From Candidatus Latescibacterota bacterium (GTDB lineage: Bacteria > Latescibacterota > UBA2968), in assembly GCA_022821275.1 (NCBI GenBank), contig JAJEDY010000061.1, forward strand, positions 62,001-126,000: DNA of 64,000 nucleotides, in the 5' to 3' direction. Below the pieces are notes generated by a model, which saw nothing but the letters and a program-made list of their open reading frames with translations, was not told where the DNA came from and did no database searches. The position numbers and the translations under genes are program-made. This document shows positions 4,277-63,865 of this stretch, piece after piece (position 1 is the first letter of the stretch; every line of letters starts with the position of its first letter).

Positions 4277-5250
4277 TGCAAGAATATCAATTTCCAAACC
4301 GTCCAAATTTCGATTTGCAATTCAACCCCAAGTTCATCTATTACGGGTTAATTGTACTGGCCTTGCTCTGGTTGGCCAGCGGCATCTACACGGTGCGGCA
4401 AGATGAGCAAGCAGTCGTATTTCGATTCGGACAAGCGGTGGGCCTGAAAGATCCTGGCATCCAATACCACTGGCCCACACCCATCGAGCGCGTTGAAAAA
4501 GAGCGCGTATCAGAAGTAAAACGCCTCGAAGTCGGTTTTCGCACCATCAGCGTGAGCCCCACGCCGAGATACCAGAAGGTCTCAGCCGAATCCGCGATGT
4601 TGACCGGCGACGAGAATATCGTGGATGTAGAACTAATCGTTCAGTATCGCATCCGCGATTTGGAGAACTATTTGTTCCAGGTCAACGACCAGCGAAAAGC
4701 CATCAAAGACGTGACCGAGGCCGCATTGCGTCAGGTCGTTGGGCAGCGCACCATCGACGAGGCTCTCACAGAGGGCAAGCTGGAAATTCAAGAAGAGATT
4801 CTGAAACAGGTTCAAGAAGTCCTGGATCTCTACAAAATTGGCGTGCGCGTCGATCAGGCCAAATTGCAGACCGTATCTGTACCCCAGGAAGTCGATCACG
4901 CATTTAAGGACGTCGCCAATGCGCGAGAAGACAAAGAACGTCTCCGCAACGAAGCCGAAGCCTATCGCAATGATATTATCCCAAAAACGCGCGGTGAAGC
5001 CGAAAAAATGATCCGAGAAGCCGAAGCCTATAAAGTCGAGCGCGTCAAGCGCTCGCAGGGCGATGCAGACCGCTTCGTCGAGGTACTCAAAGAATACCGC
5101 ACCGCAAAAGACGTGACCGAAACGCGAATGTACCTCGAAACAATGGAAAAAATCCTGCCCAGCATACAAAAATTCGTCGTCGAATCCGACGCCAGAGGCG
5201 GTATTCTCAACGTTCTCAACCTGCAAAAGCCATTAGGAGGAGGAAATTGA
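4276..5250 (+). CDS. hflK: HflK, SPFH-domain modulator of FtsH
   Basis: A 324-residue SPFH (band 7) protein. An N-terminal transmembrane helix spans about residues 17-38, followed by the SPFH domain starting at VRQDEQAVVFRFGQ and GIQYHWPTPIE, and a long charged coiled coil rich in Glu, Ala and Arg. HflK and HflC form a membrane complex that surrounds the FtsH protease and limits its access to membrane substrates. It starts within the stop codon of the PfkB gene behind an AAGGAGG site, and hflC begins one base after its stop. The order hflK-hflC is the standard one. Confidence 0.93.
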   Translation: MQEYQFPNRPNFDLQFNPKFIYYGLIVLALLWLASGIYTVRQDEQAVVFRFGQAVGLKDPGIQYHWPTPIERVEKERVSEVKRLEVGFRTISVSPTPRYQKVSAESAMLTGDENIVDVELIVQYRIRDLENYLFQVNDQRKAIKDVTEAALRQVVGQRTIDEALTEGKLEIQEEILKQVQEVLDLYKIGVRVDQAKLQTVSVPQEVDHAFKDVANAREDKERLRNEAEAYRNDIIPKTRGEAEKMIREAEAYKVERVKRSQGDADRFVEVLKEYRTAKDVTETRMYLETMEKILPSIQKFVVESDARGGILNVLNLQKPLGGGN

Positions 5251-7703: not shown

Positions 7704-9028
7704 ACTACACGCCACATACAGAACGCGATATCCAGCACATGCTCAACGTGATCGGAATAGCATCCACTGATGATCTATTTGCACCCGTTCCCGAATCGCT
7801 ACGCCTGAACGCGCTCAATTTGCCTCCGGGAATCAGTGAAATGGAAGCGATGGCATTTGTGCAATCGCTGACCGATCAAAGCGAGACACCCCTATCATTC
7901 CTGGGCGGAGGTGCTTACGATCACTTTTCGCCCAGCGTGGTCGATGCCATCATTTCACGAGGCGAATTTTTTACAGCCTACACGCCCTATCAGCCCGAGG
8001 TGAGCCAGGGAACCCTTCGGGCTATTTTTGAATTTCAATCCATGATTTGTGAACTGACCAACATGGAAGTCGCCAATGCCTCCATGTACGATGGCGCTTC
8101 CTCACTGGCCGAAGCCGTGCTTATGTCGGTCCGCCTGAACAACCGTACGCGCGTCTTATTGCCGCGCAGCCTGCACCCGTTTTACCGCCAGGTGATAGCG
8201 ACTTATGTGCGGGGGATCGATCTCGAACTCGTGGATATTCCCTGGTCTGACTCCGGCACACTGGATATCCATGCTTTAAAGCGCGAATTAAACGACAATA
8301 CCGCCGCCGTGGTCGTACAAAATCCAAATTTTTTGGGCGTACTCGAACACTTAGACGAAATTGGCGACCTGATCAACAATACCAGAACAGCTTTTGTGGC
8401 CTGCGTCAACCCCATATCCCTGAGCGCGATTCGCCCACCGGGCGACTTCGGCGCCGATATGGTCGTAGGCGACGGACAGCCACTGGGCCTGCCCCTGTCT
8501 TATGGGGGACCTTACGTCGGCTTTTTTGCATCGCGAGACGCACACGTGCGAAAAATGCCCGGTCGCATCTGTGGGCAGACCACCGATGTAGATGGCAAAC
8601 GCGGCTTTGTACTGACATTGCAAACGCGCGAGCAACACATTCGACGCGAACGCGCCACATCGAACATCTGCACCAACCAGACCCTTTGTGCAACCGCAGC
8701 AACCGTGTACCTATCCTCTGTCGGACCGCAGGGCTTCCGCGAAGTTGGCGAATTGAACTGGCATCAAAGCCATCGCGCTTTGCAGGCATTGACCGCCTTA
8801 GACGGCGTGCGCCAGAAATTCTCCGGCGCAGTATTCAACGAATTCGTTCTGGAAACAGACCGCAAAGCATCCGATGTTCTAACCGCCTTGCAACATCGGG
8901 GCATTGAAGCTGGCATTGACCTGGGCCGATTTTATCCCGAACTCGAAAATTGTATTCTCACATGTGTCACAGAAAAACGCACAGACGCCGACATTGATCG
9001 CCTCATCGATGCGTGGAGGACATTGTAA
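7700..9028 (+). CDS. gcvPA: glycine dehydrogenase (decarboxylating) subunit 1
   Basis: A 442-residue N-terminal half of the glycine cleavage P-protein. FLGGGAYDHFSPSVVD and EFFTAYTPYQPEVSQGTLR are hallmark segments of the subunit-1 family, followed by the aminotransferase-fold core. With subunit 2 it decarboxylates glycine and passes the aminomethyl group to the H-protein lipoamide. The two-subunit form occurs in many Bacteria and Archaea; others have a single fused P-protein. No gcvT or gcvH lies in this window. The gene overlaps both neighbours by a few bases. Confidence 0.95.
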   Translation: MNYTPHTERDIQHMLNVIGIASTDDLFAPVPESLRLNALNLPPGISEMEAMAFVQSLTDQSETPLSFLGGGAYDHFSPSVVDAIISRGEFFTAYTPYQPEVSQGTLRAIFEFQSMICELTNMEVANASMYDGASSLAEAVLMSVRLNNRTRVLLPRSLHPFYRQVIATYVRGIDLELVDIPWSDSGTLDIHALKRELNDNTAAVVVQNPNFLGVLEHLDEIGDLINNTRTAFVACVNPISLSAIRPPGDFGADMVVGDGQPLGLPLSYGGPYVGFFASRDAHVRKMPGRICGQTTDVDGKRGFVLTLQTREQHIRRERATSNICTNQTLCATAATVYLSSVGPQGFREVGELNWHQSHRALQALTALDGVRQKFSGAVFNEFVLETDRKASDVLTALQHRGIEAGIDLGRFYPELENCILTCVTEKRTDADIDRLIDAWRTL

Positions 9029-10476
9029 TGAACCGCGATAAGTTAATTTTTGAACGCGGCGCGCCAGACAGACGCTGTGTCGCATTTCCCGCTGCGGTGG
9101 ATTCCGGAACAGAAATTCCCGAAACCATGCGCCGCGATGTGCCACCCGGTCTCCCCGAAGTCAGCGAACTGGAACTCGTGCGCCACTACACCGCGCTTTC
9201 ACAGATGAACTTCAGCATCGACACCCATTTTTATCCCCTGGGATCCTGTACCATGAAATACAATCCCAGAGTACATGAAAAAGCGGCGCGTATCCCGCAG
9301 ATCGCGGGATTGCATCCCCTATCGGAAAATGCCCAACCCGCCCTGCAAGTCATCTGGGAAATGGAACAAGTGCTCAAAGCCGTCAGCGGAATGGACGGAT
9401 TCACCTTTCAACCCACAGCCGGGGCGCAAGGCGAATTCGTGGGCATATCACTGATCGCCGCCTATCACAAGGCACAGGGCAACGCCAAAAAAGTAGTACT
9501 CATCCCCGACTCTGCCCACGGCACAAATCCGGCAACCGCGGCAATCTGCGGGTATGCAGTACAGGCAATAAAATCAACAGAACGCGGCACAGTCGATGTG
9601 GAAGACCTCAAGACGCACTTGACCGAAGACGTAGCCGGATTGATGTTGACCAACCCCAACACATTTGGCGTATTTGAAGACGAAATTGAAGACATCGCCG
9701 CATTAGTACACGACGTAGGTGGCCTCTTGTATTACGACGGCGCGAACTTAAACGCCTTTCTGGGTCAATGTCGCCCCGGCGACATGGGCTTTGACGTCGT
9801 ACACATCAACCTGCACAAAACATTTACAACACCCCACGGAGGTGGCGGACCAGGCTCTGGTCCCGTAGGCGTAACAAAGGCACTCTTGCCATTCTTACCC
9901 CTGCCCGTAGTCCTGAAAGAAGGTGATACATTCAAGCTCGACTTTGACCGCCCGGAATCCATCGGCAAAGTGAGTTCATTCTACGGCAATTTTGGCATGG
10001 TCATACGCGCATTGGTCTATGCCAAAATGCTCGGCGCAGAAGGCATGCGCCGCACTAGTGAAATGGCCGTCTTGAACGCCAATTACATCGCGGCAAAACT
10101 CGACCCCCACTACGACCGCCCCAAAAATGCACAACCCATGCACGAAATGGTATTCTCGGCATCGCGACAAAAAAGGGCGAACGGGATCACCGCAACCGAT
10201 ATTGCCAAACGGCTGATCGACTACGGCGTCCATCCGCCCACGATCTACTTTCCCCTGCCCAATGTCGCGCCCGAAACCATGCTCATCGAACCGACCGAGA
10301 CCGAAAGTCTCGAACAGGTTGACGACTTTATCGAAGCCATGATCCAAATAGCAAAAGAAGCCGAAGAAAACCCCGACCTCCTCACCGAAGCCCCCCACGC
10401 AACACCCGTGCGAAGACTGGACGAAGCAACCGCCGCGCGAAAACCCATCCTTCGGTTCAAGACCAATAACCCTTGA
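9028..10476 (+). CDS. gcvPB: glycine dehydrogenase (decarboxylating) subunit 2
   Basis: A 482-residue PLP-carrying half of the P-protein. The PLP lysine lies in HINLHKTFTTPHGGGGPG, which is nearly invariant in the family, and FYPLGSCTMKYNPR near the N-terminus is also diagnostic. The start at 9028 overlaps the stop of subunit 1 (TAATG) and has GGAGG 10 bases upstream; an in-frame GTG at 9013 is a less likely start. It forms the active enzyme with the preceding gene. A promoter for the next operon begins inside the last codons. Confidence 0.95.
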   Translation: MNRDKLIFERGAPDRRCVAFPAAVDSGTEIPETMRRDVPPGLPEVSELELVRHYTALSQMNFSIDTHFYPLGSCTMKYNPRVHEKAARIPQIAGLHPLSENAQPALQVIWEMEQVLKAVSGMDGFTFQPTAGAQGEFVGISLIAAYHKAQGNAKKVVLIPDSAHGTNPATAAICGYAVQAIKSTERGTVDVEDLKTHLTEDVAGLMLTNPNTFGVFEDEIEDIAALVHDVGGLLYYDGANLNAFLGQCRPGDMGFDVVHINLHKTFTTPHGGGGPGSGPVGVTKALLPFLPLPVVLKEGDTFKLDFDRPESIGKVSSFYGNFGMVIRALVYAKMLGAEGMRRTSEMAVLNANYIAAKLDPHYDRPKNAQPMHEMVFSASRQKRANGITATDIAKRLIDYGVHPPTIYFPLPNVAPETMLIEPTETESLEQVDDFIEAMIQIAKEAEENPDLLTEAPHATPVRRLDEATAARKPILRFKTNNP

Positions 10477-10500
10477 CATACTCAAATATCTAACTATATT
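10473..10500 (+). promoter_or_regulatory. sigma-70 promoter of the EcoRV-like modification operon
   Basis: TTGACA (10473-10478) and TATATT (10495-10500) are separated by 16 bases, a strong match to the sigma-70 consensus, 44 bases before the HTH gene. The -35 overlaps the last codon of gcvPB. The -10 is the left end of a perfect palindrome. Confidence 0.7.
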
Positions 10501-10514
10501 CCCTGGGGAATATA
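10495..10514. promoter_or_regulatory. palindromic operator over the -10 box
   Basis: TATATTCCC and its exact reverse complement GGGAATATA are separated by TG. The left arm is the -10 box itself, so a bound repressor would block the promoter. The small HTH protein encoded next is the obvious candidate for autoregulation, as with controller proteins of other restriction-modification systems. This is inference. Confidence 0.6.
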
Positions 10515-10543
10515 GCTTGTTGATCTCTCCAGGAGAAAATTCC

Positions 10544-10744
10544 ATGAGCAAGAAAGGTATTTCGCAAGAACTAATTACAACTCGAGAAGCTGCAGAAAAT
10601 CTTGGATATACAATTCAGCACACACGCCTGTTGATACGTCGTGGAGAAATTGAGGCCACAAAATTTGGCAGAGATTGGCTGGTCGTGCGTGAATCTGTTG
10701 TCGAATACAAGATGGGTGGTGCATCAGACAATTCCGACGAGTGA
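10544..10744 (+). CDS. small excisionase/MerR-type HTH protein, putative R-M controller
   Basis: A 66-residue DNA-binding protein of the HTH_17/excisionase type: ITTREAAENLGYTIQHTRLL followed by a wing with IEATKFGRDWLVVRESV. The start at 10544 has AGGAG upstream. It is followed after 15 bases by the adenine methylase, and a palindrome covers its own promoter, so a controller role for the restriction-modification operon is plausible. EcoRV itself is described as having a controller protein, but of a different (Xre-like) type as I recall it. A recombination directionality factor is the alternative; no integrase is nearby. Confidence 0.7.
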   Translation: MSKKGISQELITTREAAENLGYTIQHTRLLIRRGEIEATKFGRDWLVVRESVVEYKMGGASDNSDE

Positions 10745-10759
10745 ACCGAGGGGATACAG

Positions 10760-11674
10760 ATGAATAAAAAAATAAACAATGTAAAAGCACCGCCCCTCAA
10801 AATTCAGGGCATCAAAACAAAACTCGTTTCATTTATTATGCACAATGTGAAATGGGATGGACAGGGGCGATGGGTTGAACCATTCTTGGGGTCAGGAGTT
10901 GTGGTACTGAATGTCAACCCAGAGAAAGCCTTGCTCGCAGATACAAATGAACACATCATTCACTTCTATCGCGCAATACAAACTGGCGAAATGAATCCCT
11001 ATGATTTGCGATGCTTTTTAGAGCGAGAAGGCCGTGTGCTAAAAGAAAAAGGCCAGGACCACTACTATGAACTGCGTGAACGCTTTAATACACATCATTC
11101 GCCCTTTGACTTTCTCTTTTTGAATCGCGCGTGTTTTAACGGCATGATGAGATTCAACTCAAAGGGCAAATTTAACGTGCCTTTTTGCAGAAAACCCGAA
11201 AGATTCGCTCAGGCTTATATCACCAAAATATGCAATCAAGTCGCCTGGGCACTTGAAAGAATAAAGGGAAAAGATTGGCACTTCACAGTTCAGGACTGGC
11301 ACGATACCTTAAGCCAGGTTGAAGATTCAGATTTCGTTTATCTCGATCCGCCTTATAATGATAGACATACAGATTATTACAACCAGTGGCGCGACAGTGA
11401 TGCAGATGGGTTGGCGCGAGCAGTCAAAAAGTTAAAGGCTCCTTTTGCCTACTCGACCTGGAAGCAAAATAAATACCGTACAAATGACCACCTGACAAAG
11501 CACTTCTCTGATTTTCCCACGGCGACAAAGGCGCATTTCTATCATATCGGCTCAAAAGAATCGCTCCGCAACGCGATGGAAGAGGCTCTCGTCATGTCAC
11601 CAGATTGTGTCGCGAAAAATGAGAAAGACAGTATGTTACCGGACTTTCAGGAACAATTCGCTATTTCTTTTTAG
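10760..11674 (+). CDS. DNA adenine methylase, M.EcoRV-like (D12 class)
   Basis: A 304-residue N6-adenine methyltransferase. The SAM-binding motif is EPFLGSG at residues 40-46 and the catalytic motif DPPY at 196-199. Other segments, such as IQGIKTKLV, LDFLFLNR-like FDFLFLNRACFNGM and RFAQAYITKI, match my recollection of M.EcoRV closely along most of its length, so GATATC methylation is predicted. A good GAGGGG ribosome site precedes the ATG. Its last codons overlap by four bases the end of the convergent restriction gene. It would protect host DNA from that enzyme. Confidence 0.9.
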   Translation: MNKKINNVKAPPLKIQGIKTKLVSFIMHNVKWDGQGRWVEPFLGSGVVVLNVNPEKALLADTNEHIIHFYRAIQTGEMNPYDLRCFLEREGRVLKEKGQDHYYELRERFNTHHSPFDFLFLNRACFNGMMRFNSKGKFNVPFCRKPERFAQAYITKICNQVAWALERIKGKDWHFTVQDWHDTLSQVEDSDFVYLDPPYNDRHTDYYNQWRDSDADGLARAVKKLKAPFAYSTWKQNKYRTNDHLTKHFSDFPTATKAHFYHIGSKESLRNAMEEALVMSPDCVAKNEKDSMLPDFQEQFAISF

Positions 11675-12405
11675 CGATATTGTCTCCATATCCTGAACTC
11701 TGCCAAATTTTTGTATTTCCCTTCACGCTCAGACGCTGATCTTCCGTAATTTCGCCAATATTCTAAAAACTCTTCCTTCGACTGGAAAGGTCCCGATTCA
11801 TTGCGGAAATCATACAAATCCCCCGATATACTTCCAATATTTGCCGTATTTCCACTGCCTGCACTCTCACCAGCTATCTTCCATTTTCGGGCCACAAACC
11901 AGGACACATCTTCGAATGGTAACGGGATTTCATAGAGTCTTTCCAAATCGTAAATGTGATTCGGGTCATCTTCAGAAGATTTTCTTGTATATATAAAGCC
12001 GACCACCCATTCTTCTGCGTACTGACTATATGGAAACTCGATATTTTTGGTTTCATTTCTGAGAAAACTCGTGTAACCCCCAAGTGTAAAACTGACTTTT
12101 GTCCTTTCTCGACTGCGGTAGGTGGTTTTGACATCTACCGCAATTTTTTGATCGTCTGCGGCACTCTCCATTAACGTGAAATCAGGATAGTAATTCTGAG
12201 CTTTTGCTTCCCGAACAATCATTCCATTTTGCTGCGCGACCTGATAAATTACTGGTCTGACGAGCAACTCAAAAACAGTACTCAAAACTTTGGAATCAGT
12301 ACCAAGAGAGTAAATTTTCTCATCCGCTGTTATAATACCTCTGACATCGTAGCTGATATTGTGCTCCTCAAAAATTCTCTCGAATTCAGTTCGAAAATCA
12401 AGCAT
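11671..12405 (-). CDS. type II restriction endonuclease, EcoRV-like
   Basis: The 244-residue protein aligns end to end with EcoRV (245 residues) from memory. Catalytic residues appear as Glu46, Asp75 in YYPDF, and Asp91-x-Lys93 in VDVKTTY, each one position offset from EcoRV Glu45, Asp74, Asp90 and Lys92. The minor-groove Q-loop Gln70 and the major-groove recognition loop GSGNT (183-187) are kept, as is FTLGGYTSFLRN. GATATC cleavage is therefore predicted. The gene runs convergent to its methylase with overlapping stops and has its own promoter region beyond 12405. GAGGTG upstream is the ribosome site. Confidence 0.93.
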   Translation of the reverse strand: MLDFRTEFERIFEEHNISYDVRGIITADEKIYSLGTDSKVLSTVFELLVRPVIYQVAQQNGMIVREAKAQNYYPDFTLMESAADDQKIAVDVKTTYRSRERTKVSFTLGGYTSFLRNETKNIEFPYSQYAEEWVVGFIYTRKSSEDDPNHIYDLERLYEIPLPFEDVSWFVARKWKIAGESAGSGNTANIGSISGDLYDFRNESGPFQSKEEFLEYWRNYGRSASEREGKYKNLAEFRIWRQYR

Positions 12406-12444
12406 GTTTACACCTCATTTGATCACATCTGTAAAGTATGCTGT

Positions 12445-12455
12445 CTGGTGACCAG
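12445..12455. promoter_or_regulatory. possible operator upstream of the endonuclease gene
   Basis: CTGGTGACCAG is a perfect 5-1-5 palindrome about 40 bases upstream of the endonuclease start. It is short enough to occur by chance and does not resemble the palindrome upstream of the methylase operon, so its role is doubtful. Confidence 0.2.
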
Positions 12456-12468
12456 CGATTTTTGATTT

Positions 12469-13245
12469 TTAATCGGCGCAAAAATTCATGGTATTAACAT
12501 TTCCTGTCTTTAGATCATCTAAGGTCATATTATACCACCATGGGAGTTGCGCTCCTGGTCCCAATGCTTCTTTGAATTTGGCATAGTATCTAAGCGCGAT
12601 CCTCTTATTCTGTGCCATCTGTTCTTCATAAGGACGACGTTCCACATAGGGTTTATAGCAATCATACAAAAAATCTTTCTCTTTTCCTTCGCTCAGACGT
12701 CTCACAACACCGAAAAGGTCCATGTGAAAACTCGCAATAATCCGATAAACATCTGCAATAAAAGGCCCATTGGGAAACGCCTTTGCATATTGGTAGGCGA
12801 CCTTTATATTTGGCATTTCTCCAAGTCCATGATACGAACGAACGCCCAGAATTTGTGAAAAAAGGGTATATTCCCGATATTTAGAATCGGGATCCATTTT
12901 ATGAGCTTGAACGAGAAATTTTTCAGAATATACCAGAGCCTGACTGTATGTTCCCCCAGCATATTTGGATGTTTCTATTCCCAACGCCCGCGTGCGATCA
13001 TTATCGTATTTATAGTAATCTTCATGCTTTTCAATTTTGAAGAGATCGTCAAACTTCCTCAACTCCTCTGATATGAACGCTCTCAGTTTCCCATCTAACT
13101 CGACATATTTTTTTACCGTAGGATTTGCAACTATTGCTTCGTATTCCGCATAAAGCTGATCGAGTCGTTGTTGTATGGGATCTTCTCCAAACGCATTTGA
13201 AGTAATCGCGCACCCCATAAAAATATAGAAAATTATTCTCACCAC
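12469..13245 (-). CDS. secreted protein of unknown function
   Basis: I do not recognise this gene. A GTG start at 13245 (or the adjacent GTG at 13242) follows AAGGAGG by 6 to 9 bases and begins with a hydrophobic signal sequence, RIIFYIFMGCAITSNAFG; an upstream ATG in frame lacks a ribosome site. The mature protein of about 235 residues is largely helical and charged, with SKYREYTLFSQILGVR and WWYNMTLDDLKTGNVN as notable stretches; the spacing of aromatic residues hints at TPR-like helices. The Cys in FMGC could be a weak lipobox. AT-rich composition matches the adjacent R-M genes more than the PhyH genes. Confidence 0.7.
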   Translation of the reverse strand: MVRIIFYIFMGCAITSNAFGEDPIQQRLDQLYAEYEAIVANPTVKKYVELDGKLRAFISEELRKFDDLFKIEKHEDYYKYDNDRTRALGIETSKYAGGTYSQALVYSEKFLVQAHKMDPDSKYREYTLFSQILGVRSYHGLGEMPNIKVAYQYAKAFPNGPFIADVYRIIASFHMDLFGVVRRLSEGKEKDFLYDCYKPYVERRPYEEQMAQNKRIALRYYAKFKEALGPGAQLPWWYNMTLDDLKTGNVNTMNFCAD

Positions 13246-13370
13246 GACGATCCTCCTTAATTTTATCCTCACAAAACCCACCTCACTTGCATATTTCCAT
13301 TCTCCGGGCGGTTCAAGATTTTCTGGCATGTTCTTTTTGAACGTATTATGGTAAAATACAGCAAAACCTT

Positions 13371-13403
13371 CTGGATCGCGGCTAACATCCTGCCGCGATG
13401 ACG
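13371..13403 (+). repeat. CTGGAT-family stem-loop repeat
   Basis: CTGGATCGCGG is followed by CTGCCGCGATGACG, giving a 7-bp perfect stem (TCGCGGC/GCCGCGA) with a 9-base loop. It belongs to a family with copies at 47881, 53211, 59070 and 61078. It lies in the 254-base gap between the unknown secreted protein and the first PhyH gene. Confidence 0.8.
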
Positions 13404-13499
13404 ATTGCCTTTAACGTATTACTTGTTTCTCACATCTTGTATCTTTGTGTCTTTGTGTGAGGCTCTCTCACATCCCACTTCCCACAAGCAGGTGCTATC

Positions 13500-14318
13500 A
13501 TGTCCTTCCAATTCACAGAAAAACACATCGCCGATTACCACACCCTCGGCTACACCATATTCCAGGACATCATACCCACAACCCTACTCACAGACCTGCG
13601 CCGCGTCGCTGATAAAGCAAGAGAAATAGCGCGCAAAGTCACCGGTCCACAGGCGCAGCGCCTCCAGCCCATCGCCAAATACGACCTCGACCAGCGCCCC
13701 TTCAAAAACTACGGTGAATTGCCAGAACTCAACGACGCCATCCATCGCGTCCTCACCCCACACCACTACCACGCCGACCTCGACCGCACCGGCATCCTGC
13801 TCGAACCCGCCGAATACCCCTGGTGTACGGACTGGCACCGCGACTGGCGCGATCACATGCCCCGGGAAGTATTCGAATCCGAATTTCGCGAAGAATGGCA
13901 ATGGCAATCATACCACATCGACTACCAGAACCAGATCAACTGCGCCCTGTACGAAGACCCATCCACCTGGATCGTACCCGGCAGTCACTATCGCCAGCGC
14001 AACCTCCCCGGTGAAATCGCCGCCAAAAACGCCTATGACCGCGACAAATTCCGCAACCAGAGACCCGTCTCCAACGAACAACAAGAACGCGACTGCCTCG
14101 ACTACGCGCGCAACATGCCCGGCGCTGTACAACTGCGCCTCAACGCGGGCGACTTCGCCCTCTATCGTTCAAGCGCCTGGCATCTCGGCAATTATGTCCC
14201 CTACCGCAAACGCGCCACCATCCACGACTTCTGCGGCACGCCTGAATATTCCCAACACATTGACGAACGCATTGAAAGAAAAGAAACAGCCATCAAACGC
14301 CTTGCATCTGCAACCTGA
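13500..14318 (+). CDS. phytanoyl-CoA dioxygenase (PhyH) family protein, copy 1
   Basis: A 272-residue non-haem iron, 2-oxoglutarate oxygenase. Iron ligands read as His113 and Asp115 in DWHRDW and His228 in SAWHLGNY, with Arg238 as the likely 2-oxoglutarate anchor. The jelly-roll is preceded by an N-terminal FTEKHIADYHTLGYTIFQD helix-strand typical of the family. PhyH proteins hydroxylate varied small molecules; the substrate here cannot be read. It is the first of four PhyH genes on this strand and the most divergent from copies 2 and 3. It uses cytosine-rich codons like most genes of the window. Confidence 0.87.
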   Translation: MSFQFTEKHIADYHTLGYTIFQDIIPTTLLTDLRRVADKAREIARKVTGPQAQRLQPIAKYDLDQRPFKNYGELPELNDAIHRVLTPHHYHADLDRTGILLEPAEYPWCTDWHRDWRDHMPREVFESEFREEWQWQSYHIDYQNQINCALYEDPSTWIVPGSHYRQRNLPGEIAAKNAYDRDKFRNQRPVSNEQQERDCLDYARNMPGAVQLRLNAGDFALYRSSAWHLGNYVPYRKRATIHDFCGTPEYSQHIDERIERKETAIKRLASAT

Positions 14319-14416
14319 ACACTTTCGACGCCCTGCACATAACTATTGTCTCTAAATTTTACTATTCGTAAATTTAGCAATAATTATACAAATTCCATAC
14401 TTTCAGGAGCCACGCT

Positions 14417-15187
14417 ATGCAACTCACACCCGAACAAATACGCGAATTTTACGACCGCGGTTACGTCAAAATACCCGGCGCCATATCAAAAGCCATGGTC
14501 GATACCGCGCGCCAGGCCGTCAACCACTCCATCGGCACCCTGGGCCCAAACGGCGAAGACATGTCCAAACACCGCGCAGCGCAATTCTGCCGCGACTTGA
14601 ATGGCGCCCCCGTAATAATGGACCTCTTCAACAACAGCCCGGTCATCTCCCTCGCCGAATCCCTCATGGGAGAGGGCAACTTGCAAAAACCCATCGGAGG
14701 CGCGCAAGTCGCCCCGCGATTTCCCACAGTAATCGGCGAAATCCCACCCGAACCGCGCGGTCATCTCGACGGCATGGGCACCGGCACAAACGGCATGCCA
14801 AAAGGCGTGTACCGACGCGGATTTACGGCCTTCGCCGTCATCTATCTCGCCGACGTACCCGAACCCTACAGCGGCAACTTCACCGTCTGGCCAGGCTCTC
14901 ATCGCTTCTTTGAAAACTACCTCAAACGCGAGGGCCTCGAAATACTCTCCAGCGGCACCCCGCGCGTTGACCTGCCCGAAGGACCGGACATGGTCACCGG
15001 AAACGCCGGCGACCTCATCATCGCACACCATCAGATGATCCACACCGGCGGTCCCAATGCCTCACCCAACATACGCTACGCCGCCATCGCACGCCTGCGC
15101 CACATCGACTGCAACAAAAATGGCAACGACTGCTTCCAGGACATCTGGCGCGAATTTCCCTGCGTGCGCGAAGCCATCGCGGCGTAA
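14417..15187 (+). CDS. phytanoyl-CoA dioxygenase family protein, copy 2
   Basis: A 256-residue PhyH protein. Iron ligands are His116 and Asp118 in RGHLDGMG and distal His209 in QMIHTGGPN; Arg220 follows at the expected spacing. CAGGAG lies upstream of the ATG. It is a clear tandem paralogue of copy 3: both are 256 residues with the shared stretches YSGNFTVWP, SHRFF and GNAGDLI, and both start with a Q/E-rich helix then FYDRGY/FAKEGY. The substrate is unknown. Confidence 0.9.
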   Translation: MQLTPEQIREFYDRGYVKIPGAISKAMVDTARQAVNHSIGTLGPNGEDMSKHRAAQFCRDLNGAPVIMDLFNNSPVISLAESLMGEGNLQKPIGGAQVAPRFPTVIGEIPPEPRGHLDGMGTGTNGMPKGVYRRGFTAFAVIYLADVPEPYSGNFTVWPGSHRFFENYLKREGLEILSSGTPRVDLPEGPDMVTGNAGDLIIAHHQMIHTGGPNASPNIRYAAIARLRHIDCNKNGNDCFQDIWREFPCVREAIAA

Positions 15188-15191
15188 AGGC

Positions 15192-15250
15192 ATCCACAGA
15201 AAAAACGCGAGTAATTTGAGCTTTTACACAGATAGATACAGATAAAAGGC
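15192..15250. repeat. degenerate CAGAT-family repeat arm
   Basis: CATCCACAGA near the start and ACACAGATAGATACAGATAA further on recall the arm at 57925. The match is partial and the segment is probably a decayed copy between PhyH copies 2 and 3. Confidence 0.45.
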
Positions 15251-15319
15251 GAGAGGCGAGAAGGAATAGGGTCTGGCGGGTTGGGGAGACTGACAACTAA
15301 CAACTGACAGAGGTTTACC

Positions 15320-16090
15320 ATGTCTATGACCATTACTGACGCGCAAAAACGCCAATTCGCAAAAGAAGGCTACCTCAAAATCCCGGGGGCTGTACCCAAA
15401 AACATGATCGAAACGTCACTTCGCGCCGTCAACCATTCCATCGGCAACGTGGGCATTGGCGGCGAAGACCTCTCCAGACACCGCTCCGGCTTCTTTTGCG
15501 CCGAGCTTTTGGACGCGCCCTTCATTCTCGACATGTACAACAAAACCCCGGTCATGCAAATTGCCGAATCGCTCATGGGCAAAGGCAACGTCCTCCCCGT
15601 TGAACGCGCCAAAACCTATCCGCGCTTCCCTCTCCCCCTCGGACAAGAACCATCGCCACCGCGGGGACACATCGACGGCATTGGCAGCGGCACCAACGGC
15701 ACGGCCAAAGGCGATTACAAACGCTCATTCACCGCCTTCGCCGTCGTCTATCTCGTCGATGTACCCGAACCCTACAGCGGCAACTTCACCGTCTGGCCCC
15801 AATCCCATCGCTTCTTTGCCGACTACTTCACAGAACACGGCCACGAAGTACTCGCCAACGGCATGCCCCGGCCCGACCTGCCCAAAGACCCCATCATGAT
15901 CACTGGTAACGCGGGCGACCTCATTCTCGCGCATCATCAAGTCGTCCACGGAGCCTGTCTCAACGCATCGCCCAACGTGCGCCTCGCCACCATCACCCGT
16001 CTCAAACACAAAAATACCGACGAAATCGGCAAAGGCGCGTACACAGACATCTGGCGCGAGTGGCCCGGTATCCGCGACATCCTATCATAA
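15320..16090 (+). CDS. phytanoyl-CoA dioxygenase family protein, copy 3
   Basis: A 256-residue paralogue of the preceding gene. Iron ligands His117 and Asp119 lie in RGHIDGIG and His210 in QVVHGACLN, with Arg221 as co-substrate anchor. Two possible ATGs (15320 and 15326) differ by two residues. The close similarity of copies 2 and 3 points to a recent tandem duplication; differences are concentrated after the HxD motif and around the distal His, where substrate contacts are expected. Copy 4 follows after 8 bases. Confidence 0.9.
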   Translation: MSMTITDAQKRQFAKEGYLKIPGAVPKNMIETSLRAVNHSIGNVGIGGEDLSRHRSGFFCAELLDAPFILDMYNKTPVMQIAESLMGKGNVLPVERAKTYPRFPLPLGQEPSPPRGHIDGIGSGTNGTAKGDYKRSFTAFAVVYLVDVPEPYSGNFTVWPQSHRFFADYFTEHGHEVLANGMPRPDLPKDPIMITGNAGDLILAHHQVVHGACLNASPNVRLATITRLKHKNTDEIGKGAYTDIWREWPGIRDILS

Positions 16091-16098
16091 AGTTCACC

Positions 16099-16875
16099 AT
16101 GACCATCACCGAAGCGCAAAAACAACAATACAGAGACGACGGCTATTTCATCCTCGAAGCCGTCATCCCCGAACACCACCTCGAACTCCTGCGCGACGAA
16201 TGCCAGACCTTTATCGACACCATGCACGCGCGCATGGATGAACAGGGCACGGACACCATCGGCATCAATCATCGCAACAAACGCTACTTTGTCTCCAACT
16301 GCTTTCGCCAGCAACCCAAACTCCGCGCCTTCCTCTTCAGCGACCTCATGGCCGAAATATGCCGGGCCACCCTCGGCGACAACGCGTACCTCTTCTGGGA
16401 ACAATACGTCGTCAAAGGCGCGGAAACCGGCATGAAATTCTCATGGCATCAGGACTCGGGCTATGTCGGTTATCCCGACCACAAACCGTATCTCACCTGC
16501 TGGTGTGCGCTCGACGACATGAGCGAAGAAAACGGCACCGTCCATCTCCTGCCCTATTCGCGCAGCGGTATCCGCTCGTGGGTACACCACATCGTCGAAG
16601 AAGGCAGCAACGACAAAGTCGGCTACTTTGGCAGCGACCCCGGCCTCATTGCAGAAGTACCCGCAGGCAGCATTGTCGCCTTCTCCAGCATCGTCTTCCA
16701 CAGCAGCAGCACCAACACCACCCCAAAACTGCGCCGCGCGTACCTGGGGCAATACTCCTGCGAACCCATCCTATCATCTGACGGCAGCAAACTCTGGGGC
16801 AACGCCGAACCCTTCCTCCGCAATGGCAAATCCACAGTTGGTGAATCCCCACCCGACTTGCCATCGCGAATGTAA
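16099..16875 (+). CDS. phytanoyl-CoA dioxygenase family protein, copy 4
   Basis: A 258-residue PhyH protein of another subfamily. Iron ligands His117 and Asp119 lie in SWHQDSGYVGY and His201 in FHSSSTN, with Arg212 or Arg213 behind. The motif WHQD and the following LTCWCALDD are the more canonical PhyH form, close to ectoine-hydroxylase-type and related enzymes. The start at 16099 was preferred because it is 8 bases after copy 3 and leaves the family N-terminus MTITEAQKQQYRDDGYFIL intact; an upstream in-frame start would overlap copy 3. The substrate is unknown. Confidence 0.88.
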   Translation: MTITEAQKQQYRDDGYFILEAVIPEHHLELLRDECQTFIDTMHARMDEQGTDTIGINHRNKRYFVSNCFRQQPKLRAFLFSDLMAEICRATLGDNAYLFWEQYVVKGAETGMKFSWHQDSGYVGYPDHKPYLTCWCALDDMSEENGTVHLLPYSRSGIRSWVHHIVEEGSNDKVGYFGSDPGLIAEVPAGSIVAFSSIVFHSSSTNTTPKLRRAYLGQYSCEPILSSDGSKLWGNAEPFLRNGKSTVGESPPDLPSRM

Positions 16876-16876
16876 A

Positions 16877-18202
16877 CTAAAACTCTCGCCACCAGTACGG
16901 ATTGGACATCTCCCCCGGATAAGAGGAATGCACCAATTCGTAAACCCCCGTACCTCGCCGATCTCTAAACACAAATTCGTAGCGCCGCGCGGTCTCGTAA
17001 AACCAGACCTCCGAAGGCTTCTGACCCGCCGCAGAAGTCCGATAATCAATATCATCGGGCGGCCCATACTGAATATAAACCCGTCCCCGATCCGTATCCG
17101 ATCCCCTTACGCCAGCCCCAAAATGCGTCTCCACATAATGCACACGCATCAAATGCTGAAGCAAACGCCCATTAGTCGGCGTATCGGGTGCATCGTCCAA
17201 CTGCTTCCAGAAAACCTTCAAAAACGCCAGCCTGGCTGGCCAGCTCTCCAGCGCGTCATAAGCCCGCCGCGTCTTCTCATCGGCGACATACCGAATATCT
17301 GCATAATACCCGATCAAATCCCTCTGCACCTGCGTAAGCCCCTCGGGCAAATCTTTTGACACCAGAAAAATGGGACGCCTCGTCTGAAAATACTGCCGAC
17401 TGCTCCCATCAAACGCCTCCACCTGAAGATCATAAGTCCCCTCCCGCAAACCCTCTGTATCCAGAACCTCTGCCCTCACACAACTCTCCCCCGGCTTTAA
17501 AAACCGCTTCGCCGGATAAGTACGCACAACCACCCCCTCCGCATCGATCAGGCGGTACCCCATAATAAAACTCTCTCCCGACGACGACAGATTATACACC
17601 TCAAAATAAATCTGCAGCGGCTCTCCGATAGCATAATTTCGGGTAATATTCGGCACGACCTTCCAGCCCTGTTTGACAAACCGATGCACCTCCCCGCTTC
17701 GCGCCACATGAGAAGCCAATTGCAAATCGCTAAACACCAGCCCCGCACGACGCTCGTAATCCGGTATCTGAAGCGGTGCAGAACAACGCCCGCTCTCCTC
17801 CGCATGAATATCCTTAATCTGCACAATCAGCCGATAAGCACCCGGCTTCAAATCAAAATAAACTGCATCCTTAAACGGCGCCCCGATCCCCACATCCAGC
17901 TCTGGAACGGCAACCTGCTGAACCCATGTCCGATGAACCACCCGATTATCCAGCGTATCCAGCACCACAGCGACCAGAGAAATCTTCCCAACAGACTCAC
18001 CCTTCTGCTCCCGCAACGCGAGCTGACTCGCATCCAGCAACAAAGCCACTTCCTGTCGGGTATATCCCTCGGGACCTCGAAAAGCCGACAAATCCACAAA
18101 AAAACGCAGGTTACCCGTACTCGACAAAGGCAAATCCTGCGCTTCTATCCCACCCGTATGAGACCAGATGAGCAGCACCGCGACACAACGTATCCATCTC
18201 AT
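16877..18202 (-). CDS. GWxTD-domain secreted protein
   Basis: A 441-residue protein with a signal peptide (MRWIRCVAVLLIWSHTGG, cleavage near EAQD). The C-terminal region has the pattern of GWxTD-domain proteins: FGAGVRGSDTDRGRVYIQYG, then PPDDID, and EVWFYETARRYEFVFRDR. Here the eponymous Gly-Trp is GS, so the motif is degenerate. The domain is common in FCB-group bacteria and its role is unknown. It is the last gene of a minus-strand run from the sulfatase, with 16 bases to the PhyH gene before it. The middle looks like beta-rich domains. Confidence 0.75.
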   Translation of the reverse strand: MRWIRCVAVLLIWSHTGGIEAQDLPLSSTGNLRFFVDLSAFRGPEGYTRQEVALLLDASQLALREQKGESVGKISLVAVVLDTLDNRVVHRTWVQQVAVPELDVGIGAPFKDAVYFDLKPGAYRLIVQIKDIHAEESGRCSAPLQIPDYERRAGLVFSDLQLASHVARSGEVHRFVKQGWKVVPNITRNYAIGEPLQIYFEVYNLSSSGESFIMGYRLIDAEGVVVRTYPAKRFLKPGESCVRAEVLDTEGLREGTYDLQVEAFDGSSRQYFQTRRPIFLVSKDLPEGLTQVQRDLIGYYADIRYVADEKTRRAYDALESWPARLAFLKVFWKQLDDAPDTPTNGRLLQHLMRVHYVETHFGAGVRGSDTDRGRVYIQYGPPDDIDYRTSAAGQKPSEVWFYETARRYEFVFRDRRGTGVYELVHSSYPGEMSNPYWWREF

Positions 18203-18218
18203 ATCTTATCTTCCACAA

Positions 18219-19067
18219 TTAAAAATTTAAACGCTCAGCCTCCTCCATCAACTGCAGCCAATCCTCATGACCGCTTGCTACCCGATCTGGATCTATCTCG
18301 CTCCTCGCAACAAAACCCGGCACCTCCTCGCGCCCGGTAGGCAACCTGTAATCGCTATATCGAATATCCAGGCTCCAGCGAATATGATCGGACTCATTGG
18401 GAAACGAGCGATGAATTGTCTTGTGCTGAATCAGCGCGGCACCCCCGGCTGGCAGCACGGACAAAACGCGATCGCCCGACGGCAGCCGATCCTCGGGAAT
18501 TTCCTTCTCTGAATCCGCCGGATCGTGTGGAATAATACCGTACTTGTGACTCCCCGCCAAAATCTCCAAACAGCCATTCTCCACATCCGTATCCACCAGC
18601 GGCACCCAGAAATTGACCATAAACGTCTTCTCCACATCCGGATCTAAAAACGCGATATCCTGGTGCCACAACACCTCTGCCTCGCCGGGCATCTTTGCGC
18701 GGATATTAAACTGCGGATGCACCAGAATCTCCGGCCCAATAATCGACTCTACCACATCCAGAATAGCCGGATGTGTCAGGAAAAAAAACAAACCCGCAGT
18801 CTTGTGAGCCTTGCCCAAAATCTCAGCTACAAAACGCTTATCCGTCCCCAGCGCCTCGCACAAATACGACAATCTCCGATCAAAAGGCGCATCCTCAAAA
18901 AGATCCTCCAATTGACCCAGAGCATAAGCGTCTCTCGCCTTTTGTCCAATTACCGCATTAAACTCATCCACAAGCGGCTGATACGCCTCCGGGTGCAAAC
19001 ACTCGTCCAGCAACAAATACCCTTCATCTTTATAAAAAGCAATCTGCGCATCCGTCAAACCGCCCAT
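18219..19067 (-). CDS. phytanoyl-CoA dioxygenase family protein, copy 5
   Basis: A 282-residue PhyH protein. Iron ligands are His135 and Asp137 in LWHQDIAFLD and His219 in KTIHRSFPN, with Arg230 as 2-oxoglutarate anchor; ENGCLEILAGSHK is the usual following strand. The gene lies 10 bases after copy 6 and shares its direction with the sulfatase, so the sulfatase, both PhyH genes and the GWxTD gene look like one operon. An oxidation step acting on the same substrate as the sulfatase is possible but unproven. Confidence 0.9.
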   Translation of the reverse strand: MGGLTDAQIAFYKDEGYLLLDECLHPEAYQPLVDEFNAVIGQKARDAYALGQLEDLFEDAPFDRRLSYLCEALGTDKRFVAEILGKAHKTAGLFFFLTHPAILDVVESIIGPEILVHPQFNIRAKMPGEAEVLWHQDIAFLDPDVEKTFMVNFWVPLVDTDVENGCLEILAGSHKYGIIPHDPADSEKEIPEDRLPSGDRVLSVLPAGGAALIQHKTIHRSFPNESDHIRWSLDIRYSDYRLPTGREEVPGFVARSEIDPDRVASGHEDWLQLMEEAERLNF

Positions 19068-61237: not shown

Positions 61238-63865
61238 ATGACACGTCTATTAATCGTCCTCATCGCATTGATCGGACTGAACACACCGGCTCATGCTCGC
61301 GTTGACCTCAGCTATTACCTGCCCGAGGGTACGACCTACGACCCCAGCATCCCCACGCCCGAAGCCTTTTTCGGATTTCAGATTGGCGACTGGCACCTGC
61401 GGCACGACCTGATCGTAAACTACATGCGCACATTGGCCGAACGCTCCGACCGCATAGCCCTCACACAATACGCCCAAACACACCAGCAACGCCCCTTATT
61501 GTTGCTCACCATCACATCCCCGCAAAACCACCAGAACCTCGAAGCCATCCAGACACAACACCGGCAACTCACCAACCCGGACCAGTCGTCCGCGCTCGAC
61601 ATCGACACAATGCCCGTAGTCGTGTACATGGGATACAGCATCCACGGCAATGAACCCAGCGGAGGCAATGCTGCGCCATTAATTGCATATCACCTGGCGG
61701 CGGCGCAAGGTCCCGCCATAGACAACCTCCTCGCCAACGCCGTCATCTTGCTCGATCCCGTATCCAATCCCGACGGCTTCGGCCGCTTTGCACACTGGGC
61801 AAACATGTACCGCAGCAAACAACTCGTTGCCGACCCCGAACACCGGGAACATCGAGAAATCTGGCCGAATGGGCGCACCAACCACTACTGGTTTGACCTC
61901 AACCGCGACTGGGTATTTATCCAGCATCCCGAAAGCCGGGGACGGATTGAGACATTTCACGCCTGGAAACCCAACATGCTCACCGACCACCATGAAATGG
62001 GCACCAATTCCACTTACTTCTTTCAACCGGGCATACCCTCGCGCAACAATCCCCTCACCCCGGCACGCACCTATGAACTCACCGCTGCAATCGCCGAACG
62101 CCACGTCAGCGCGCTCGATGAAATCGGCACACTCTATTACACGCGGGAGTCATTCGACGACTTTTACATCGGCAAAGGATCGACCTATCCCGACCTCAAC
62201 GGCGGCGTGGGCCTTCTCTTTGAGCAAGCCAGTGCACGCGGGCATATACAAGAAAGCATTCACGGACCCATCTCATTTCCCCTTGCCATACGCAATCAGG
62301 TGCGAACTGCCCTATCAGCACTCCAGGCAGCCCGTGAACTGCGCACCGAACTGCTATCGCATCAACGCGATTTTTATACCTCCGCAATCCGAGAAGCCGG
62401 GGCTGCCGCCATCAAAGCCTATGTTTTTGGCGATCCGGATGACCCGGCGCGCACCCATCATTTTATCGACATACTCCAGCAGCACCACATACAGATATAC
62501 GACCTCGCGCGCCCCATGCGCGTCGGTGGTCAGACCTTCGCACCCGGCTCGGCCTATATCATTCCCACCGCACAACCGCAATACCGCTTGCTCACCAGCC
62601 TGTTTGAACGCCGCACGACCTTTCGTGACAGCCTATTTTACGATGTCTCAGCCTGGACCTTGCCCCTGGCGTTTAACATGCCCCTGATAGAAATCAAATC
62701 GTCATCTCAGGAATTTATCGGTGACCTGTTGCCGCCGTCTGAATTTCCCCGTGGCCGTCTATCTGTATTCAACTCAGCCGTCAACACACAGACGGGTTAT
62801 ATTGGCGAACAGGGAGCTTATGCGTACCTCTTTGAATGGAATGGACATTACGCACCACGCGCACTTTACCGCCTGCAAAAAGCCGGTATAAGAGCCAAAG
62901 TGGCCTCGCGGCAGTTTCGCATGCGCATCCCTTCTGTGGTAGATGCGGGGAATGTGCGCTTATTTGACTACGGCACCATACTCATCCCCATGGGCATTCA
63001 AAAAAATGATCCGCAAACAATCCGAAACCTCATGCAAACAATCGCACGCGAAGACGCCCTCGAAGTATTTGCCGTCTCCACCGGGCAAACCGACAGTGGC
63101 ATTGATCTGGGCAGCCCGGGTTTTATCTCACTCGAAACACCTCAAATAGCCCTTTTAATAGGCAAAGGCGCCGATGTCTATAACGCCGGTGAAGTGTGGC
63201 ATTTGTTAGACCAGCGCTATAAAATGGCCATCAGCCTCATAGACGCCAGCCGTGTGCGCGATATAGACCTCAATCGCTACAACACAGTAATCGCAGCAGG
63301 TGGATCTTATAGCGACCTCGACTCTACAGGCGTCAACGCCTTAAAACAGTGGCTACACCGGGGCAATACCCTCATTGCCCTCAACAGTGCTGTTCGCTGG
63401 GCCATCAATTCCAAACTCACCAGCGCCCAATTCATCATGCGAGATCGAGAAAATCGCAGTGAACGCAGAGCTTATATCGACGCAACCAGCGACCGGGGGG
63501 CGCAGATTATTGGCGGTGCCATCTTTCAGGTTCGCCTGGACCGCACCCACCCCCTCGCCTATGGATATCGCAGTGATAACCTGCCAGTCTTTCGGCGCGG
63601 CACACTTTTTATCAAACCAGTAAACCCTTACGCCACCCCTTTGCAATACGCCAAACAACCCTTGCTCGCGGGTTATATCTCTGAACAAAACCACAATTAC
63701 ATCGCCGAAACCGCATCCACCCTCGTCGCCAAACAGGGCAATGGCCGCGTCATACTCATGCTCGACAACCCCACCTTCCGCGCCTATTGGTACGGCACCC
63801 AAAAACTCTTTGCCAACGCCCTCTTCTTCGGTCCCACCATCGGCCTTCACACATTAGGCGAATAA
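61238..63865 (+). CDS. secreted M14 family zinc carboxypeptidase
   Basis: An 875-residue peptidase. The ATG at 61238 gives a signal peptide (RLLIVLIALIGLNTPAHA); GAGG lies upstream, while the open frame extends to 61202 without support. The zinc ligands are His136 and Glu139 in GYSIHGNEPSGGN and a later His in TDHHEMG (His251 or 252). FDLNRDWVFIQHPESRGRIE matches M14 active-site strands. The C-terminal half is a beta-rich domain resembling the class I glutamine amidotransferase-like fold. It may degrade exogenous peptides. A terminator follows. Confidence 0.9.
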   Translation: MTRLLIVLIALIGLNTPAHARVDLSYYLPEGTTYDPSIPTPEAFFGFQIGDWHLRHDLIVNYMRTLAERSDRIALTQYAQTHQQRPLLLLTITSPQNHQNLEAIQTQHRQLTNPDQSSALDIDTMPVVVYMGYSIHGNEPSGGNAAPLIAYHLAAAQGPAIDNLLANAVILLDPVSNPDGFGRFAHWANMYRSKQLVADPEHREHREIWPNGRTNHYWFDLNRDWVFIQHPESRGRIETFHAWKPNMLTDHHEMGTNSTYFFQPGIPSRNNPLTPARTYELTAAIAERHVSALDEIGTLYYTRESFDDFYIGKGSTYPDLNGGVGLLFEQASARGHIQESIHGPISFPLAIRNQVRTALSALQAARELRTELLSHQRDFYTSAIREAGAAAIKAYVFGDPDDPARTHHFIDILQQHHIQIYDLARPMRVGGQTFAPGSAYIIPTAQPQYRLLTSLFERRTTFRDSLFYDVSAWTLPLAFNMPLIEIKSSSQEFIGDLLPPSEFPRGRLSVFNSAVNTQTGYIGEQGAYAYLFEWNGHYAPRALYRLQKAGIRAKVASRQFRMRIPSVVDAGNVRLFDYGTILIPMGIQKNDPQTIRNLMQTIAREDALEVFAVSTGQTDSGIDLGSPGFISLETPQIALLIGKGADVYNAGEVWHLLDQRYKMAISLIDASRVRDIDLNRYNTVIAAGGSYSDLDSTGVNALKQWLHRGNTLIALNSAVRWAINSKLTSAQFIMRDRENRSERRAYIDATSDRGAQIIGGAIFQVRLDRTHPLAYGYRSDNLPVFRRGTLFIKPVNPYATPLQYAKQPLLAGYISEQNHNYIAETASTLVAKQGNGRVILMLDNPTFRAYWYGTQKLFANALFFGPTIGLHTLGE

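Follow-up and report, generated by a model that had tools for sequence, protein, structure and literature searches.

Introduction

A recent review of the control of restriction-modification (R-M) systems lists promoter methylation, methylase-repressor fusion, antisense RNA and controller (C) proteins as modes of control, the latter commonly activating at low and repressing at high concentration (PMC12707154). In the Kpn2I system, C.Kpn2I represses the strong methylase promoter and the endonuclease is expressed from a weak constitutive promoter (PMC6237814). In the Csp231I system convergent endonuclease (R) and methylase (M) genes are accompanied by a dedicated regulator (PMC4824078). Here we describe an EcoRV-type R-M cassette found in a 64,000-nucleotide stretch of DNA from Candidatus Latescibacterota bacterium (positions 62,001 to 126,000 of contig JAJEDY010000061.1, assembly GCA_022821275.1), which we refer to as the window, and in which a gene for a small helix-turn-helix (HTH) protein stands ahead of M. 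We estimate a probability of about 0.7 that this is a complete, probably functional and mobile cassette of the EcoRV family, likely GATATC-specific, with an HTH-M operon that is autorepressed by the HTH protein and with a separately expressed R.

The endonuclease and the methylase

R (244 amino acids (aa), 11671-12405, minus strand) matches the Pfam family Endonuc-EcoRV (PF09233) with E = 1.5e-56 and 192 bits at a curated cut-off of 25, and the match is full-length, with R residues 16-244 aligned to profile positions 6-243 of 244. No family other than EcoRV gave a significant sequence match in the PDB (E = 2.4e-79 for EcoRV), the identity being about 49% (118 of 239 positions). An earlier note on this DNA had compared R with EcoRV, and the alignment to EcoRV bears this comparison out residue by residue: the catalytic triad Asp75, Asp91 and Lys93 corresponds to EcoRV Asp74, Asp90 and Lys92, Gln70 and Asn71 of the Q-loop correspond to Gln69 and Asn70, and the R-loop GSGNT (Gly183-Thr187) corresponds to Gly182-Thr186. 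Further contact residues are also kept, namely Asn189 (EcoRV Asn188) and Lys39 (EcoRV Lys38). A structure model of R, for which window, sister-genome and viral-contig sequences served as input, reached a predicted template modelling score (pTM) of 0.75, and its best 39 matches in the PDB were all EcoRV, the best with E 2e-25 and a template modelling (TM) score of 0.79. These comparisons confirm R as a full-length relative of EcoRV and a new member of the family.

M (304 aa, 10760-11674, plus strand) is a predicted adenine-N6 DNA methyltransferase of the Dam/D12 family. It matches the Dam-family model TIGR00571 with E = 1.2e-53, PF02086 with E = 1.7e-40 and the PADLOC model MTase_II with E = 1.3e-126, with the D12/Dam profile and the DPPY motif present. 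Identity to M.EcoRV is 50%, and the methylases of the Acinetobacter and Geobacillus EcoRV-type systems are closer still (56-57%), which refines the earlier and otherwise correct description as M.EcoRV-like. M and R converge with a four-base tail-to-tail overlap of their stop codons, TTAG at 11671-11674, which contains the M stop TAG on the plus strand and the R stop TAA on the minus strand. This overlap and all open reading frames (ORFs), strands and coordinates had been given in the earlier note as we find them.

The HTH protein, its promoter and the palindrome

The HTH gene comprises 66 codons at 10544-10744 on the plus strand, has a good ribosome-binding site and lies upstream of M, as had been proposed before. 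Its product matches the excisionase family TIGR01764 (E = 7.7e-10) and HTH_17 (PF12728, E = 7.3e-7); no HTH_3 match was obtained in Pfam and NCBIfam scans. Three other genomes encode the protein with 77-97% identity and with residues 20-32 invariant, and ratios of non-synonymous to synonymous substitution rates (dN/dS) of 0.06-0.26 against the window copy, with four genomes compared, indicate purifying selection. In the systems of EcoRV, Acinetobacter, Geobacillus, Latilactobacillus and Leuconostoc the HTH gene precedes R in all five cases, and HTH_3 was found in each of the four C proteins scanned, those of EcoRV, Acinetobacter, Geobacillus and Latilactobacillus. In the cassette described here the HTH gene precedes M, on the strand opposite to R, and no HTH gene was found ahead of R in the window. 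Judged by its predicted family and by the gene at whose side it stands, the small HTH protein belongs outside the C proteins of the EcoRV type.

Ahead of the HTH gene, at 10473-10500 on the plus strand, a sigma-70-type promoter is predicted (TTGACA, 16-bp spacer, TATATT), which is the best match of the region and agrees with the consensus at 11 of 12 positions. Its -10 element and predicted start point are overlapped by a perfect 22-bp palindrome, CTATATTCCC-TG-GGGAATATAG, at 10494-10515, so that the palindrome at the promoter claimed earlier does exist as a sequence feature. When up to three mismatches are allowed the palindrome occurs once in the window, against 0.03 occurrences expected. 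The pattern TATATTCN6GAATATA is found once each in G000 (5.66 Mb), G002, G004, G005 and G007 and is missing from the remaining genomes of the 11 available for the genus. The palindrome-bearing genomes are exactly the five that possess an intact HTH gene. The copies in G002, G004, G005 and G007 share the -35 element, the 16-bp spacing and TATATT; G008, in which the HTH gene is frame-broken and the palindrome degraded, has TGTATT. The palindrome is conserved at two chromosomal sites, and in G002 its centre is inverted from TG to CA and its arms are lengthened to 12. These observations suggest that the palindrome over the promoter is probably the operator of the HTH protein. A hairpin in the 5' untranslated region of the RNA was also considered and rejected: transcription is predicted to start within the palindrome, which should therefore act as DNA and not as an RNA hairpin.

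In some copies the HTH gene and M are separated by an inserted gene for a 123-aa protein (in G002 on L012, at about 4688-5060 of its reverse complement, in G007 on L047 and in G009 on L061). This protein has a series of coiled-coil-like repeats (IGQLRLEHGNKLTQLE) and a C-terminal segment that is hydrophobic, and no convincing Pfam family was found for it.

Mobility and loss of the cassette

Sister loci with 94-97% and 78% protein identity are present in metagenome-assembled genomes of Candidatus Latescibacterota, in agreement with the host in an uncultivated phylum that the earlier note had assumed. Within the genus 4 of the 11 genomes (G000, G002, G005, G004) have an intact R, and six have an essentially intact M. 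The cassette is located after gcvPB in G000, G002, G005 and G007, and elsewhere in G004 and G008, giving three chromosomal sites in all. In G001, G003, G006 and on two contigs of G004 the gcvPB site is empty, and the two flanks are the same but only some tens of bases apart. Relative to these empty sites the window contains an inserted segment of about 3 kb (10455-13481) between gcvPB and a phytanoyl-CoA dioxygenase-like ORF. Homology between the window and G004 stops at 12409, four bases before the R start codon. The cassette has a G+C content of 42.3%, compared to 51.9% for the window. Different sites, empty sites and low G+C show that the cassette is mobile.

The inserted segment also contains a 286-aa ORF (12469-13329, minus strand), which adjoins R upstream on the same strand and lies outside the portable cassette; it had no match in Pfam, NCBIfam, PHROG or PADLOC. 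Sequence homologous to this region persists in G007 and G009 after the loss of R.

Three genomes carry decayed copies. G007 has wholly lost R together with the last residues of M, in G008 M is kept and is fused to a remnant of the first 45 codons of R, and in G009, where the R-loss junction is nearly that of G007, most of M is lost too. The decay is thus ordered, with R lost first and M later, as would be expected if R is an active toxic nuclease. The intact copies are under purifying selection, with dN/dS of 0.16-0.24 for R and 0.08-0.14 for M.

PF09233 was detected in 8 of 64 Latescibacterota genomes, 12 of 72,556 plasmid records matched R, and so did 2 of 50,697 phage records, both of one virus. 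The earlier note called the family rare, which holds only in part: few plasmid and phage records have it. In IMG/VR neither R alone nor the HTH protein gave a match as query; the search with M gave five contigs, four of them with an EcoRV-type R near M, and two of these four (L084 and L085) are apparently the same virus. EcoRV-type R-M pairs are present on the predicted viral contigs L084, L086 and L088. On L084 the ends of the convergent R and M overlap, and ahead of R no C gene was recognised.

The expected target site

From the relationship of both enzymes to the EcoRV pair we strongly infer that GATATC would be the target site. GATATC is similarly frequent in carriers and non-carriers, with about 376 sites per Mb in G000 and about 361 in G006, and ratios of observed to expected counts are 0.77 and 0.70 in carriers and 0.71 in a non-carrier. 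The window contains 29 sites, with 16.4 expected by shuffling. Avoidance of GATATC as a signature of specificity was dropped, since carriers show no depletion relative to the non-carrier. For a young mobile cassette such counts neither favour nor oppose GATATC specificity. No GATATC was found anywhere in 8270-18653, so that neither the cassette nor its promoter contains a site. Control by promoter methylation, as in CfrBI, was rejected, because a promoter free of GATATC argues against it.

Two other sites, GTCGAC and GTATAC, are strongly depleted in G000, G005 and G006, irrespective of whether an EcoRV-type system is present. Only 0-4 sites were observed in samples of these genomes (L090-L149), compared to 70-81 and 33-40 expected, respectively, under a Markov model. 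This hints at an older or widespread restriction pressure, or at a composition rule.

Proposed regulation and alternative explanations

The uniqueness of the palindrome, its tracking of intact HTH genes and its overlap with the promoter lead us to infer an autorepressed HTH-M operon. The HTH_17 gene and M would form one operon under a strong promoter, and the HTH protein, as a dimer, would bind the palindrome over the -10 element and start point and repress its own operon. A naive cell would produce M first, and at full level; as the HTH protein builds up, M would drop to a protective level, at which no surplus methylase would spare incoming phage DNA. R, having no controller of its own, would be expressed weakly and constitutively, either by read-through or from a local promoter, and convergent transcription from M would oppose its expression. 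The two chromosomal sites with intact cassettes have unrelated sequences upstream of R, and at each of them an ORF on the strand of R reaches R, which suits weak or read-through expression. The sequences show the gene identities, the kept active-site and contact residues, the convergent overlap, the unique and conserved palindrome, the mobility, the purifying selection and the loss of R first; repression, timing and GATATC specificity are predicted.

Several points weigh against autorepression and GATATC specificity as proposed here. DNA binding, transcription and cleavage are all predictions, and with undepleted GATATC counts in carriers the genome lends the specificity no independent support. 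For the HTH protein an AlphaFold model, built from four near-identical sequences, has a mean predicted local distance difference test score (pLDDT) of only 53, so that fold and dimerisation rest on the assignment to the family. Direct or irregular repeats are frequent targets of HTH_17/excisionase proteins, which makes a symmetric operator uncertain.

Since C proteins of R-M systems can work in both directions (PMC12707154), the HTH_17 protein might instead be an activator or a two-way switch, or might also control R in the manner of classical C proteins. Half-sites GGGAATATA, exact or with one mismatch, are indeed found upstream of R at 12867, 12947 and 12974 on the minus strand, within 116 bp. 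However, this cluster was noticed post hoc, lies inside the coding sequence of the 286-aa ORF and may be due to chance, and the G004 site lacks the sequence upstream of R together with these half-sites. In addition, the palindrome is placed over the -10 element and start point and not ahead of the -35 element, and the promoter is already close to consensus. We therefore regard activation or control of R as unlikely.

The HTH_17 gene might also be left over from a mobile element, as a hitch-hiking excisionase gene without any role in control, which would be in line with the best-matching families of the HTH protein and with the mobility of the cassette. However, neither in the window nor in G004 was an integrase gene recognised next to the cassette. 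The HTH gene shows purifying selection across the four genomes in the comparison, keeps its position in the operon at three chromosomal sites and tracks a unique palindrome over a shared promoter. Moreover, a homologue with 46% identity is encoded immediately upstream of a DNA cytosine methyltransferase gene on the Deinococcus actinosclerus plasmid CP029778 (L089, 3992-5420), although no recognisable palindrome precedes it, and the HTH stretch itself weakly matches the N-terminus of a PADLOC type II methyltransferase model (E = 0.007). A mere remnant is thus very improbable. Equally improbable is a drift of the enzymes to another specificity, or an inactive endonuclease, as might be read from the near-contact changes Gln68 to Ala, His71 to Tyr and Thr187 to Ala (EcoRV numbering) and from the missing R of sister genomes, given that the checked direct-contact and catalytic residues are kept and most of them are invariant in the family alignment, that Ala or Glu is frequent at EcoRV position 187 across the family, that R is under purifying selection and that loss of R first is expected of an active toxic nuclease.

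In summary, autorepression of the HTH-M operon, with R expressed separately, is the reading we prefer. The enzymes themselves are ordinary. The regulatory layout is a new, if modest, variant in comparison to every related system examined, with a predicted function. More tentatively, and with the odds somewhat against it, an HTH_17 protein may have replaced the XRE C protein as dedicated R-M regulator, timing expression by repressing M via a single symmetric operator rather than by activating R. If so, similar HTH_17 genes ahead of other methylases, such as that of Deinococcus, would make up a second, unrecognised class of R-M controllers. A regulator working as proposed would represent non-XRE control from the methylase side, outside the four modes of the review (PMC12707154), and would provide a compact and testable operator-regulator pair. 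No R-M controller of the excisionase type came up in literature searches, with most subscription papers outside their coverage. The locus further places the family of the textbook enzyme EcoRV in an uncultivated phylum, with mobility and ordered decay, and the predicted GATATC methylation would indicate a site to protect when DNA is moved into these bacteria.

Relation to known systems

We compared R and M in trees of 14 pairs, in which several branches are weakly supported. In the R tree the window protein groups with EcoRV, Acinetobacter and one viral contig; in the M tree its neighbours are Acinetobacter and that viral contig again, M.EcoRV being placed with Rhodothermus and Antarctobacter. 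It looks as if R and M of the window had been inherited together and the pair of the prototype EcoRV (L015, pLG13) had been reassorted, which we take as a lead only. The systems of Rhodothermus, Antarctobacter and the Latescibacterota genomes G015, G037, G046 and G063 belong to the same R and M families but have R and M in tandem on one strand, possess no homologue of the window HTH protein and form a separate branch of the R tree. Four of the eight genomes of the phylum with PF09233 show a tandem arrangement close to that of Rhodothermus and Antarctobacter.

The closest full system found is that of plasmid pANC7454.2 of Acinetobacter sp. ANC 7454, with 51% identity for R, 56% for M, convergent genes and an identical 4-bp overlap. 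It differs in having an HTH_3 C gene ahead of R and no HTH_17 gene ahead of M. EcoRV itself (E. coli pLG13, NC_005019) shares 49% (R) and 50% (M) identity over nearly the full length as well as the catalytic and recognition residues, but its M points away from an operon of C and R in which the C protein is of the XRE/HTH_3 type, whereas in the window HTH_17-M converges on R and no C protein is present. In Kpn2I the C-protein promoters are divergent from the M promoter, and its enzymes are outside the EcoRV family. Kpn2I nevertheless provides a proven precedent for the logic that we propose for the window cassette, repression of M combined with a constitutive R (PMC6237814). Csp231I (PMC4824078) has its C gene ahead of R, whereas the regulator of the window cassette is located ahead of M.

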